Source of the DNA: Alphaproteobacteria bacterium
Lineage (GTDB): Bacteria > Pseudomonadota > Alphaproteobacteria > DSM-16000 > Inquilinaceae
Direction of reading: 5' to 3'
Length of the DNA stretch: 64,000 nucleotides
Assembly (NCBI GenBank): GCA_028281925.1
Contig: JANQIX010000055.1
Coordinates: forward strand, 124,001 to 188,000
In this document: positions 47,866 through 52,378 of the stretch, in pieces
How the letters are laid out: each line of letters starts with the position of its first letter
Numbering within the stretch: the first letter of the stretch is position 1
Position numbers and translations under genes: made by a program
Notes under the pieces: model-generated
Database searches by the model: none
Seen by the model: the letters and a program-made list of their open reading frames with translations, nothing else
What the model was told of the DNA's origin: nothing

Positions 47866-49653
47866 TCAGCCGTCGCTGTCTTCCCCTGCCCTGCCGACAC
47901 GGATCGCTAGGACCGCGTCGCGCGCCGCCACCGCTTCATCCGCCAGCACCTCAAGGCCAGCGATCTCGGGGAACGGCGCGACATCGTCGACGGCGATCAT
48001 CCGTTCTGCAGGCCCGAACGAGTTCGAGAGCCGCACCTGGACGATGACCTGCTTCAGCTGAGAATCGTCCGGATAGCCCGGGCCCAGCGCCACGAAAGCT
48101 TCCGTTTCCGTGGCATCCTGGCGCTGCCAGACCCGGCGGGCCGCCAATACGTCCTCATAGCCCCAATAGCTCGGCCACTCATCCCCCTCATAGATCAAGA
48201 GGATCGGGATGCGCGACTGCTCGGGCTGCGGGGCCAGCATCTCCACCTGCACACGCACCTCCGGCGCGGGAAACGCTTGTGCCTGTATCTCCGCCAGCAG
48301 CTGAACCAGCGGTCGCATGCGCCGCACCTTGCGCTCCAGCGAGAGGGCGGCGACTTCCGCGAGATCCAGAGACAATTGAGCCTCCAGATCCACCACTGAC
48401 GCCTCGTAGTCTCTCTGGCGTCTTTCGAAGTCCTGTGCCGTCTCGAACGGATCCCGCTCATCGGGAACGATCATCAACTCCAGTATGCGCCGGTAGTCCT
48501 CCTCCAGTTCACGGCGATCTTCTGCAAGGCGCGCGTCTTCTTCCGCTGCAATCGCGGCGAAGGCTGAGCGCAAGATGACGGTGCTCGCCGCGGCCTCTTC
48601 CAGAGTTTCCGGTGGGCGCCAGTGGATCGGATCGAAGGCCGGCTCACGCTCGTCGACAGCTTCGGTGATCGTGGGGCTCGGGGCGCGCCCCTCCGCCTCC
48701 AGCGCCTGGCGGATCTCTGCGATCCGCTGGAAGCTGCTCTGGATCGGCGCCGAAATGGCGAGACGGAAGCCGAAGGTATCGATGCGGGTGGGCGCATTGC
48801 GGGTGGGATCGATATAGAAGTACTCGATCCGCATCGATGTCCTGAGACGCTCCGCCGGTGTCTGGATCGACCCGCCCATGGTCGTGAACCCGCCGACCAA
48901 GCCGCCGACGCGCAATGGGTCGAACACCAGTTCTTCCGCGTTGCCCAGAATGTCATGCAGACCCAGCGGATTGGGCCGCAGCAAGCCGACCGGCCGCATC
49001 CGGCCGTTGGCGGAATCGGCTCCCTGGTACCAGACGTACTGGCTGATCGGTCCGTCCATCGGGAAAAGCCGCTGGCCGAACGCATCCTGAGACACTGCGC
49101 TGCCGCCGCGCGCCGCATACTCCCATTCCGTCGAAGTCGGCAGGCGCAGAAAGCCATATGCCTGGCCCACACGCGGCAGACTGTCGACCGCATTCTCCAA
49201 AAGCCAGAGGGTGTACGCATGCCCGAACGCCACCGCCTCTTGCCAAGACACGTCCGAAGCCGGACGGCTGCCCAGCCGCGTCGGATCCCGGCAGACCGAA
49301 GACTGCACGGCGTTGTACTGATCGATCGTCACCTCGTACTTGCCGAGATAGAACAGCGGCATGTCATCGTCCGCACTGCGGAACGGACCGGCCACATGGG
49401 CAAGATGCTGGGATTCGCCGATCGACGCGCCATAGTCGGCCAAGCCCAGGGATACCTCGACGCCGAACACGTCATTCGCCTGTTCCGGCGTGGCGACCGG
49501 CCGAAAGGCCATGCCGCCGCCGCAGGGCAGCGGCAGCACCAGATCATCGGGCTGGGGATCTGGGTTGAAGCTCTCGCCCGGCCAGTCCTGCGCCCCCACC
49601 CTTGCCGGCCCGGCCAGCAGCAGGAACGATGCGAGTACGATGCGGAAGGCCAT
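47866..49653 (-). CDS. Exported SUMF1/formylglycine-enzyme-fold protein with coiled-coil C-terminal extension
   Basis: A 595-residue protein. The signal peptide is MAFRIVLASFLLLAGPARVGA. A FGE-sulfatase (SUMF1/EgtB/PvdO) fold covers ~60-330. Its markers are LGKYEVTIDQYNAV, PASDVSWQEAVAFGHAYTLW, RLPTSTEWEYAARGGS, GLHDILGNAEELVFDP and DTFGFRLAIS. The usual active-site Cys near the end of the fold (RGGSW...CR) is absent, with no Cys there, so classical formylglycine formation is unlikely. Residues ~340-480 are charged and helical, including a probable coiled coil (EEDARLAEDRRELEEDYRRI). The last ~100 residues are a beta-rich domain. It is divergent from the caspase-like gene across 253 bp. Both are exported, so a joint periplasmic function is likely. 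Confidence 0.82.
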   Translation of the reverse strand: MAFRIVLASFLLLAGPARVGAQDWPGESFNPDPQPDDLVLPLPCGGGMAFRPVATPEQANDVFGVEVSLGLADYGASIGESQHLAHVAGPFRSADDDMPLFYLGKYEVTIDQYNAVQSSVCRDPTRLGSRPASDVSWQEAVAFGHAYTLWLLENAVDSLPRVGQAYGFLRLPTSTEWEYAARGGSAVSQDAFGQRLFPMDGPISQYVWYQGADSANGRMRPVGLLRPNPLGLHDILGNAEELVFDPLRVGGLVGGFTTMGGSIQTPAERLRTSMRIEYFYIDPTRNAPTRIDTFGFRLAISAPIQSSFQRIAEIRQALEAEGRAPSPTITEAVDEREPAFDPIHWRPPETLEEAAASTVILRSAFAAIAAEEDARLAEDRRELEEDYRRILELMIVPDERDPFETAQDFERRQRDYEASVVDLEAQLSLDLAEVAALSLERKVRRMRPLVQLLAEIQAQAFPAPEVRVQVEMLAPQPEQSRIPILLIYEGDEWPSYWGYEDVLAARRVWQRQDATETEAFVALGPGYPDDSQLKQVIVQVRLSNSFGPAERMIAVDDVAPFPEIAGLEVLADEAVAARDAVLAIRVGRAGEDSDG

Positions 49654-49906
49654 GCTGCCGACCCATGGCGGTCTCGGATAATGCGCCGCGTATTCTTGGG
49701 GAAGATGGCGTCGGGCGCCACAGGCCATTCGCATGGTTGCGCGCCGGCACGCCCTGCTGCGGCCTTGATCGGCCCGCGCGCGGACATGCCGCTGCCCGAT
49801 TGCAGACAGATCCTGCCAGTATTTTGGCACACCGGGCCGGTTGCCGCCGGCACGGCTTGAGGCTCGATGCCGCGCCCAGGGTACCGGTCGCGGATGTGGA
49901 GGTTGA

Positions 49907-52378
49907 ATGGGATCTGCGATGCGTTGGCTTCCGATCGTCTCGTGGCTGCTTGCCTGCTGCGCCTTCGCCGCACCGGCGCTCGGGCAGGACCGCGTTGCGC
50001 TGTTGATCGGCAACCAGAATTATCCGCACGCGACGGATCTGGAGTCGCCGATCGCAGACATTCGGGCCGTTGCCGCGCGCTTGTCGGAGATCGGGTTCTC
50101 CGTCGCCACGCTGGAGAACGCCACACTGTCATCGATGTCGCAGTCGCTGGCTGACTTTCGCGAGCGCGCGCAGTCGGCTGAAGTGGCGATCGTCTATTTC
50201 GCGGGCCATGGCCGGCAGTTCCGGCGAAACAACTATCTGGTGCCCGTCGACGCGGAAATCCGCCGACCCGGCGACATCCACGCCTTCTCGCTGCCCGTCG
50301 ATGACGTGATCCGTCAGCTTGCCACAAGCGGAACGGAGCGTGGGCTGGTCATCCTGGATGCTTGGCGCAACGACCCTGAGGTCGGCGACCGCCTGGAGGC
50401 CGAAGCCCGGCGACAGGGTCGGCAACCGGCGCTGACCGAGAGCTATTCCCGCATCGACGGGCTACCGGCGAATATCGTCCTCTGGATGCCGGTGGCACCC
50501 GGAGAGATCGCGGGTGGTGAGCCTGCCGGATCACCCGACGCGTTCGCTTCGGCGCTCCTGGCGGCGCTGGAAACGCCGGGCGCCGCCAGCGCCGTCGTGT
50601 TCCGAGACCTCGCCGCCCGCGTACGGGGCGCCACATCTGACGCCCAGGTTCCGCAGTCGATCGGAGACTTCGCGGACGACATCGTCCTCGTGCCCTGGCC
50701 CGCAGCGGACCCAGACAACCTTCCGCCAGTGGTGCCTGGGACCGAGGCGATCGTGTTCCATCCGATCCCGCTCGGCTTGCCGCAGCCGACCGATCCCGAT
50801 GGCGACCCGCTGACCGTCACGGTCCGATCCGTCCCGGACCGCGGCTTGGTCGCCCTACCGGACAGCGGTTCGCTTTCGCCGGGAGACCGCATCGAGCCTA
50901 CGGATCTTGAGCGTCTTGCGTACTTCCCCGATCTGACCGGCCCGGCGTCACCCGATGTCGGCATGCTGGAACTCGCAGTCAGCGACGGCCGTGGGGGCGA
51001 GACGCTCTGGCGCATTCCTCTTGAACAGGCTCCGACCCCGCCGCCCGGTGCGGCGACCGATGCGAACCGTCCCCGCCTTACGCCTGAGGACCTTGAACGG
51101 CGTCTGCTCGAACCTTTTCTCCAGATCGCCGAGATCTTCGCCGGCATGGTCGCGGCAACGGCACGTACTCAGATCGTCGTGCAGCAACCGGCCGCTCCGG
51201 CCGACAGCGTTGCGGATGCGGAGACAGCCGAACCCGATCAAGGCCGGCTGGAGGGCGAACGTCCGACATTGGATCCCGCTCTTGCGCGTGCCGAAGAGGT
51301 CCCCCCGCACGACCGGCAGATCGCGCTCAGAGAACTGGGCCATTACGGCGGCGCCATCGACGGCCTGATCGGCCGCGGTTCGCGTGCGGGCATCCGGGCC
51401 TTCCAGCGCGAACGCGGCGATCCCGAGACAGGAGAATTGACGCCGGAGCAGATCGTCGCCCTCATCACGGCGGCAGCCGAAGCCGGCGATCCGGACAGCC
51501 AGAACATGCTCGCCATCATGTATGGCGACGGCATCGGGGTGGCGCAGGATGACGCGCAGGCACTCGACTGGTTCCGGCGATCGGCCGAACAGGACAACGC
51601 CCATGCGCCCTATAACCTCGCGCTGCACTTCCGCGACGGCCGCGGTGTTCCCGTCGATACCGACGAAGCTGCAAGGCTGTTGGCGGAGGCGCGCGAACGC
51701 GGACATCCCGACGCGGAAGGCTCGCTGGAGGATCTGCCGGACGATTACACCGCTTGGGTGCCGGAGGACGACGAACCGGCAGAGCCGGATGAACCGCCGG
51801 CGACGCCCCCTGTGGCGTTGATCGGAAATGATAGCTGCTCTTGGGCCAATGACGGCTTCTGCGACGACAGCGGTTTTTACGGCAACGACACCGCGGCCTG
51901 TCCCCACGGCACGGACGCCAGCGATTGCCAAGGACGCACCGCACGCCCAGTCTCCGTGATGGTCGGCAACAGCTGCCAATGGGCGTTTGATTTCGAATGC
52001 GACGAACCCGGGATCGGCACCGGCGTGTGCGCCAGCGGCACCGACGCCAGCGATTGCGGCCCGGTCGCCGCTGCCGCCGAACCGGCGGCGACGCCGGCAC
52101 CCGTCCGACAGGGCAACAACACTTGCCGGTGGGCGTTCGACGGGGAATGCGACGACAGCCGCTACATCGGCTATCACACCAGTGCCTGTGCCCACCGGAC
52201 GGACGAGGCCGACTGCAGCCGGCTGCAGCTCCGCCCGGCCTCCACGCTGGCCGGCAACACTTGCCGCTATGCGTTCAACGGCCAGTGTGACGAGAACCGG
52301 TACGTCAACTATGTCAGCGGTTCCTGCCCTTACGGCACGGACCAGGCCGATTGTGCCGGCCTGCCGCTGCGGCGCTGA
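49907..52378 (+). CDS. Exported caspase-family pseudoenzyme with peptidoglycan-binding, Sel1 and Cys-rich repeats
   Basis: An 823-residue protein with signal peptide (SWLLACCAFAAPALGQ). The caspase (peptidase C14) domain spans ~28-270: VALLIGNQNYPHATDL, then YFAGHGRQF with the His101 dyad residue. Where caspases have DACRxxP it reads LDAWRNDP, so the nucleophile is Trp153 (TGG at 50363-50365). A Pro-rich, cadherin-like beta part (~285-375) follows. A peptidoglycan-binding domain is near 465-525 (LGHYGGAIDGLIGRGSRAGI) and Sel1 repeats near 525-605 (AIMYGDGIGVAQDDAQALDW). Four C-terminal Cys-rich repeats (from residue ~643) share the form Cys-x6-Cys-Asp-x(n)-Cys-x-x-Gly-Thr-Asp-x2-Asp-Cys. SD GGAGG precedes ATG at 49907. 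It is probably proteolytically dead. Confidence 0.85.
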   Translation: MGSAMRWLPIVSWLLACCAFAAPALGQDRVALLIGNQNYPHATDLESPIADIRAVAARLSEIGFSVATLENATLSSMSQSLADFRERAQSAEVAIVYFAGHGRQFRRNNYLVPVDAEIRRPGDIHAFSLPVDDVIRQLATSGTERGLVILDAWRNDPEVGDRLEAEARRQGRQPALTESYSRIDGLPANIVLWMPVAPGEIAGGEPAGSPDAFASALLAALETPGAASAVVFRDLAARVRGATSDAQVPQSIGDFADDIVLVPWPAADPDNLPPVVPGTEAIVFHPIPLGLPQPTDPDGDPLTVTVRSVPDRGLVALPDSGSLSPGDRIEPTDLERLAYFPDLTGPASPDVGMLELAVSDGRGGETLWRIPLEQAPTPPPGAATDANRPRLTPEDLERRLLEPFLQIAEIFAGMVAATARTQIVVQQPAAPADSVADAETAEPDQGRLEGERPTLDPALARAEEVPPHDRQIALRELGHYGGAIDGLIGRGSRAGIRAFQRERGDPETGELTPEQIVALITAAAEAGDPDSQNMLAIMYGDGIGVAQDDAQALDWFRRSAEQDNAHAPYNLALHFRDGRGVPVDTDEAARLLAEARERGHPDAEGSLEDLPDDYTAWVPEDDEPAEPDEPPATPPVALIGNDSCSWANDGFCDDSGFYGNDTAACPHGTDASDCQGRTARPVSVMVGNSCQWAFDFECDEPGIGTGVCASGTDASDCGPVAAAAEPAATPAPVRQGNNTCRWAFDGECDDSRYIGYHTSACAHRTDEADCSRLQLRPASTLAGNTCRYAFNGQCDENRYVNYVSGSCPYGTDQADCAGLPLRR
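51834..52371 (+). repeat. Four tandem Cys-rich (LNR-like) repeat units
   Basis: Four in-frame units encode SCSWANDGFCDD, SCQWAFDFECDE, TCRWAFDGECDD and TCRYAFNGQCDE, each ending TDxxDC after ~15-20 residues. Each has four Cys and acidic residues, as in calcium-binding LNR or LDL-receptor-like modules. They are separated by short Ala/Pro linkers. Confidence 0.8.

Follow-up and report, generated by a model that had tools for sequence, protein, structure and literature searches.

Can a caspase-fold protein that carries tryptophan in place of its catalytic cysteine be a stable component of the cell and, if so, what would it do? The question is raised by a gene in a window of 64,000 nucleotides, which is the whole stretch of DNA that was analysed (contig JANQIX010000055.1, positions 124,001 to 188,000 of the forward strand; coordinates below are those of the window), from an environmental alphaproteobacterium. 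A preliminary description of this DNA had left two options, a recent loss of the catalytic residue or a stable pseudoenzyme. We find that the gene probably encodes a selected, exported pseudo-orthocaspase that is unable to cut and acts by binding or scaffolding in the cell envelope.

The pseudo-orthocaspase gene (49907-52378, + strand, as are all features described here unless stated) is an intact open reading frame of 823 codons with an ATG start, encoding a protein of 823 amino acids, although translation could equally well begin at another ATG, at 49919. It has an orthologue (L047 and L045) in G001, which alone represents the genus besides the window genome among the genomes compared. Inspection of the N-terminus by eye revealed a hydrophobic stretch with an ALG/QD site, near-identical in the G001 orthologue, and residues 1-26 (49907-49984; ...WLLACCAFAAPALG/QD) are accordingly annotated as a putative export signal. 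Residues 29-250 (49991-50656) form a Peptidase_C14 (caspase) domain that matched the Pfam profile PF00656 with 87.6 bits over a cut-off of 21.4 (E 1.4e-24). The regions following this match are Cadherin/Big_9-like; absence of a p10 domain is the criterion that separates orthocaspases from metacaspases. This Cadherin/Ig-like (Cadherin_4 / Big_9-like) stretch, at about residues 270-375 (50714-51031), falls below the Pfam cut-off and was overlooked in the preliminary description, which is corrected here; a similar stretch occurs in the paralogue L054. The remainder of the multi-domain layout first proposed was upheld, with a PG_binding_1 domain at residues 471-519 (51317-51463; E 7e-8) and a Sel1-repeat region at residues 523-607 (51473-51727; Sel1 match at 529-564, E 3e-14), both over the Pfam cut-off, and with four Cys-rich repeats, each containing four Cys, at residues 644-674 (51836-51928), 690-717 (51974-52057), 740-770 (52124-52216) and 786-816 (52262-52354).

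At the active site, the DNA confirms that the catalytic Cys has been replaced. The codon at this position is TGG (50363-50365; Trp153, GLVILDAWRNDP), one base away from a Cys codon as the preliminary description had noted, and the catalytic histidine, His101 of YFAGHG, is kept (CAT, 50207-50209). Inspection of the whole sequence showed the stretch between residues 18 and 644 to be free of Cys, the only cysteines being Cys17 and Cys18 of the export signal and those of the four repeats (644-816). An alternative catalytic Cys, which would have overturned the initial interpretation, is therefore excluded from the sequence alone, and a substitute Cys nucleophile was rejected because the C14 domain is Cys-free. 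With Trp at the nucleophile position and no Cys elsewhere in the domain, Cys-His proteolysis is impossible. Active orthocaspases are recognized by a His-Cys dyad; in both orthologues His101 is present and Trp153 stands for Cys. Pseudo-orthocaspases are defined by a prokaryotic C14 domain of the p20 type whose dyad is substituted (Klemencic et al. 2019, PMC6426788), as is the case here.

The caspase fold is predicted to be retained in spite of this substitution. The C14 domain was modelled using AlphaFold2 with 87 homologues (pLDDT 91.6, pTM 0.90), and a Foldseek search with the model returned the MALT1 paracaspase as the best match (E 6e-16, TM 0.75), with caspases next. The MALT1 match and the profile score over the curated cut-off both place the domain within the C14/caspase (caspase-hemoglobinase) fold. 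MALT1 was also first by sequence in a phmmer search, in which the Trp region was aligned with the LDMCRK motif. Among solved structures MALT1 is thus closest on both counts, but it is an active human protease with Ig domains, and it has Cys in LDMCRK where the pseudocaspase has Trp.

Pseudo-orthocaspases are already known as a class. They amount to 8.6% of orthocaspases and to 18.9% in Alphaproteobacteria (PMC6426788), being especially common in that class and in Cyanobacteria. The window protein resembles the known members, among them SyOC of Synechocystis (PMC7889975), in having a p20-type C14 domain with a broken dyad and a fold predicted to be kept and, if Asp51 and Asp151 are read as the pocket residues, in its pocket Asp. 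It differs in its HW dyad and in the accompanying PG_binding_1, Sel1 and Cys-rich modules; the common alphaproteobacterial pseudo-dyads are YS, YA, FS, QC and HA (PMC6426788), and the cyanobacterial dyad variants in PMC8283722 include no Trp. No description of the HW dyad was found in the literature, although supplementary tables lay outside the search and its absence is unproven, and the domain architecture is likewise without a description found. Dyads were surveyed in 117 aligned C14 rows, most of them from the class of the window organism and a few of them duplicated. HC was found in 109, HW in two, RA in two (one locus twice) and EA, LA, HA and HG in one each, and both HW rows are the Trp pair, the window protein and the G001 orthologue. 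A tree of 114 rows placed this pair, without a resolved sister, at the end of a stem 2.38 changes per column long (support 100/100), and the long shared stem therefore marks it as a separate, strongly diverged lineage. Pseudo-orthocaspases with EA, HA, HG, LA and RA dyads also occur in the class (L036, L041, L042, L044 and L055). L055 and L044 come from the window's own family and cluster with each other in the tree.

The window genome (G000) encodes five further C14 proteins. By sequence, each of these has retained the catalytic Cys, within LDACRDNP in three cases and LDCC in two, and three of the HC paralogues are exported-looking. One of them, G000:C91 (L054, 934 aa), shares C14, Sel1 and PG_binding_1 domains and an apparent export signal with the pseudocaspase; it differs in keeping His-Cys (LDACRDNP), has no Cys-rich repeats and is 32% identical in the C14 domain. 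In the G000:C51 protein, C14 is fused to an FGE-sulfatase domain. Another locus, L053 (G000:C64:21536-24682), is found on the same contig 150 kb upstream and consists of two His-Cys orthocaspases in tandem, with MORN repeats at their C-termini. As the genome encodes three HC paralogues that look exported, one of which has a similar domain set, the pseudocaspase could be a decoy or negative regulator of its active relatives through hetero-association of caspase folds. This would have a mammalian parallel, in that caspase homologues without catalytic residues may negatively regulate caspase activity (Asplund-Samuelsson et al. 2012, PMC3501461). We nevertheless consider such a role rather unlikely, as identity to the paralogues is just 32-35%, the C-terminal modules differ and orthocaspases are not known to pair.

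The surroundings of the dyad have changed as well. Both orthologues carry N156D, G179S, L180Y, A181S, Y194M, D204G, G205E, N210P and W250Q, at positions that are 76-98% conserved among 108 intact-dyad C14 proteins. Asp51, His101 and Asp151 are retained in the Trp pair; the Asp51 and Asp151 columns are 99-100% conserved, and we take the two residues to be equivalents of Asp95 and Asp211 in the specificity pocket of TbMC2. Asp51 and Asp151 are thus kept, whereas other cleft positions (D204, N210) are lost. As read from the alignment, the substrate-side loops have diverged together with the nucleophile and the core is unchanged, and the altered cleft loops make it less likely that classical orthocaspase substrates are simply bound. 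They also bear on the possibility that the protein is active by another route, either with His101 serving a different nucleophile or with the cleft hosting an activity other than proteolysis. The retention of His101, Asp51 and Asp151 is in keeping with such an activity, as is a predicted fold left undisturbed by the exchange of Cys for Trp. We regard it as very improbable, however, given a C14 domain without Cys, a nucleophile position without Ser, Thr or Cys, and the loss in both orthologues of loop positions that are conserved in true orthocaspases.

How old the substitution is can be judged from G001, where the syntenic orthologue is 85% identical and is accompanied, as in the window, by a divergent FGE-domain neighbour with a hydroxyacyl-CoA dehydrogenase-like gene beyond. 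The G001 copy is split over two contigs whose ends correspond to window positions 50817 and 50834; a contig scan gave only L045, on contig C32 of G001, and a distant Muribaculaceae protein. Its active site reads AGHG...LVILDAWHDDP, so that the comparison of orthologues called for in the preliminary description found Trp in both. The Trp codon is again TGG, and the neighbouring codons differ between the two orthologues (GCT TGG CGC versus GCC TGG CAC). The frame was free of stops and frameshifts over all 823 codons of the window gene and in both G001 pieces. Between the window and G001, dN/dS (Nei-Gojobori) was 0.14 in the C14 domain (dS 0.535), 0.14 in residues 308-823 and 0.10 in the Cys-rich tail, values that indicate purifying selection on the whole pseudocaspase gene. 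Most simply, the Trp would predate the split of the two genomes, and the C14 domain would since have been kept by selection. Of the two options originally left open, the stable pseudoenzyme is favoured by the shared TGG, the low dN/dS, the collinearity of the gene and the open frame in the available pieces; the recent loss is contradicted by the same comparison. A TGG codon one base from Cys and the canonical HC paralogues in the same genome might suggest a Cys-less paralogue decaying toward a pseudogene, or a sequencing or assembly error at 50365, but recent inactivation or error is scarcely credible and is already refuted within the genus, as dS is about 0.5 with dN/dS at 0.14 and neither the window gene nor the two G001 pieces contain stops or frameshifts, and an error at this base is excluded because an independent genome also reads TGG, among different neighbouring codons. 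In none of the further family genomes covered by the search was a recognizable pseudocaspase gene present. The G001 contig C32 (L045, JANQQD010000041.1) has been deposited as 'Anaerolineae bacterium isolate IP29b_bin.19'. No 16S gene was found in the assembly, and the class was judged by tmRNA instead: the window genome encodes a two-piece tmRNA of alphaproteobacterial type (RF01849, E 7e-81). As this genome is collinear with G001, the Anaerolineae label looks wrong.

Divergently oriented from the pseudocaspase gene, across an intergenic stretch (49654-49906) that is largely conserved in G001, lies a gene for an exported-looking protein with an FGE-sulfatase domain by Pfam (47866-49653, - strand; 595 aa from a Met at 49653). 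Its counterpart occupies the same place in G001 and is 94.8% identical. Of the domains that accompany C14 in prokaryotes, FGE-sulfatase is one of the more frequent (PMC3501461), which makes this neighbour a reasonable candidate partner. The neighbour contains two Cys only, at residues 44 and 121, outside its C-terminal part. Catalytic FGE cysteines are expected in the C-terminal part, and the neighbour may therefore be non-catalytic too. A PADLOC search for anti-phage caspase systems gave only a weak C14 match (20.9 bits) and left the neighbour unmatched; a known defence system was rejected on these grounds.

The Cys-rich repeats follow the consensus NxCQWAxDGECDEPxxxGTGxCxxGTDxxDC, with four Cys. 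They had been labelled LNR-like, and their short, Cys-rich form and Asp-x-x-Asp-Cys end are indeed superficially like the LNR repeats of Notch. A Notch LNR repeat has six Cys, however, and the present repeat matched no Pfam family and gave no meaningful match among PDB sequences. A two-repeat model (pLDDT 91.2) likewise had no fold match in the PDB by Foldseek, which is weak on very small disulfide-rich folds. The LNR identity is not supported by the Cys count or by these searches. The repeat is rare, with hits at E 1e-5 in 10 of the 385 genomes searched from the class and in 11 of the 399 from a phylum sample. In the window genome it is also borne by trypsin-like proteins (L137, G000:C55; L138, G000:C113), a TPR-CHAT protein (L140, G000:C7), DUF4189 proteins (L136, G000:C75; L139, G000:C46) and two proteins without further Pfam matches (L134, G000:C68; L135, G000:C113), and G001 retains a matching set. 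The repeat-bearing proteins of the window genome are exported-looking and have up to about 10 repeat copies each. In other genomes, trypsin is the commonest repeat partner (L143, L144, L146, L152, L183). The secreted trypsin-like proteins L137, L138, L143, L144, L152 and L183 carry the same 4-Cys repeat family as the pseudocaspase, but with the repeats on the N-terminal side of a trypsin domain that looks intact. A repeat of this kind also occurs once at the C-terminus of an Aspzincin_M35 metallo-endopeptidase (L148, G116:C18), which comes from a different family of the class. Nothing was found in the literature on a Cys-rich repeat associated with trypsin and caspase. In this alphaproteobacterial family the 4-Cys repeat could conceivably be a shared extracytoplasmic docking module that links the trypsin-like, CHAT, DUF4189 and pseudocaspase proteins into a protease network with the pseudocaspase as its non-cutting hub or sensor, although we think this quite doubtful. 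In bacterial conflict systems, intracellular effector-associated domains pair proteases; if the idea were true, the docking repeat would be their envelope counterpart.

The reading that we prefer remains that of a non-cutting envelope protein. Since the Trp is inherited and the gene still selected, the protein probably binds rather than cuts, and we infer that it serves the cell envelope as a binder or scaffold, in a Trp lineage known from two orthologues, one of them split across two contigs. The caspase fold would provide a non-cutting interaction surface, the PG_binding_1 domain would hold the protein in the envelope, and the Sel1 and Cys-rich repeats would serve as additional protein-binding arms. 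The likeliest partners, chosen by adjacency and shared domains, would be exported proteins of the same genome: the FGE neighbour, the paralogue G000:C91 or the repeat-bearing trypsin, CHAT and DUF4189 proteins, which the pseudocaspase may scaffold or restrain. Precedents for function without the dyad are found in the mammalian inactive caspase homologues, as possible negative regulators, and in SyOC, whose deletion in Synechocystis led to a higher tolerance to oxidative stress (PMC7889975).

Pseudo-orthocaspases have so far been mostly a matter of sequence statistics, and here a single-residue loss is seen to be inherited and under purifying selection. The protein combines a dead site with peptidoglycan-binding and Cys-rich modules, and the same genome also holds a similar paralogue with intact His-Cys; the two form a clean pair with which to ask what non-cutting role a caspase fold may have in the envelope. 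The unclassified Cys-rich repeat, present on caspase, CHAT, trypsin and DUF4189 proteins, points to candidate partners for such a role.
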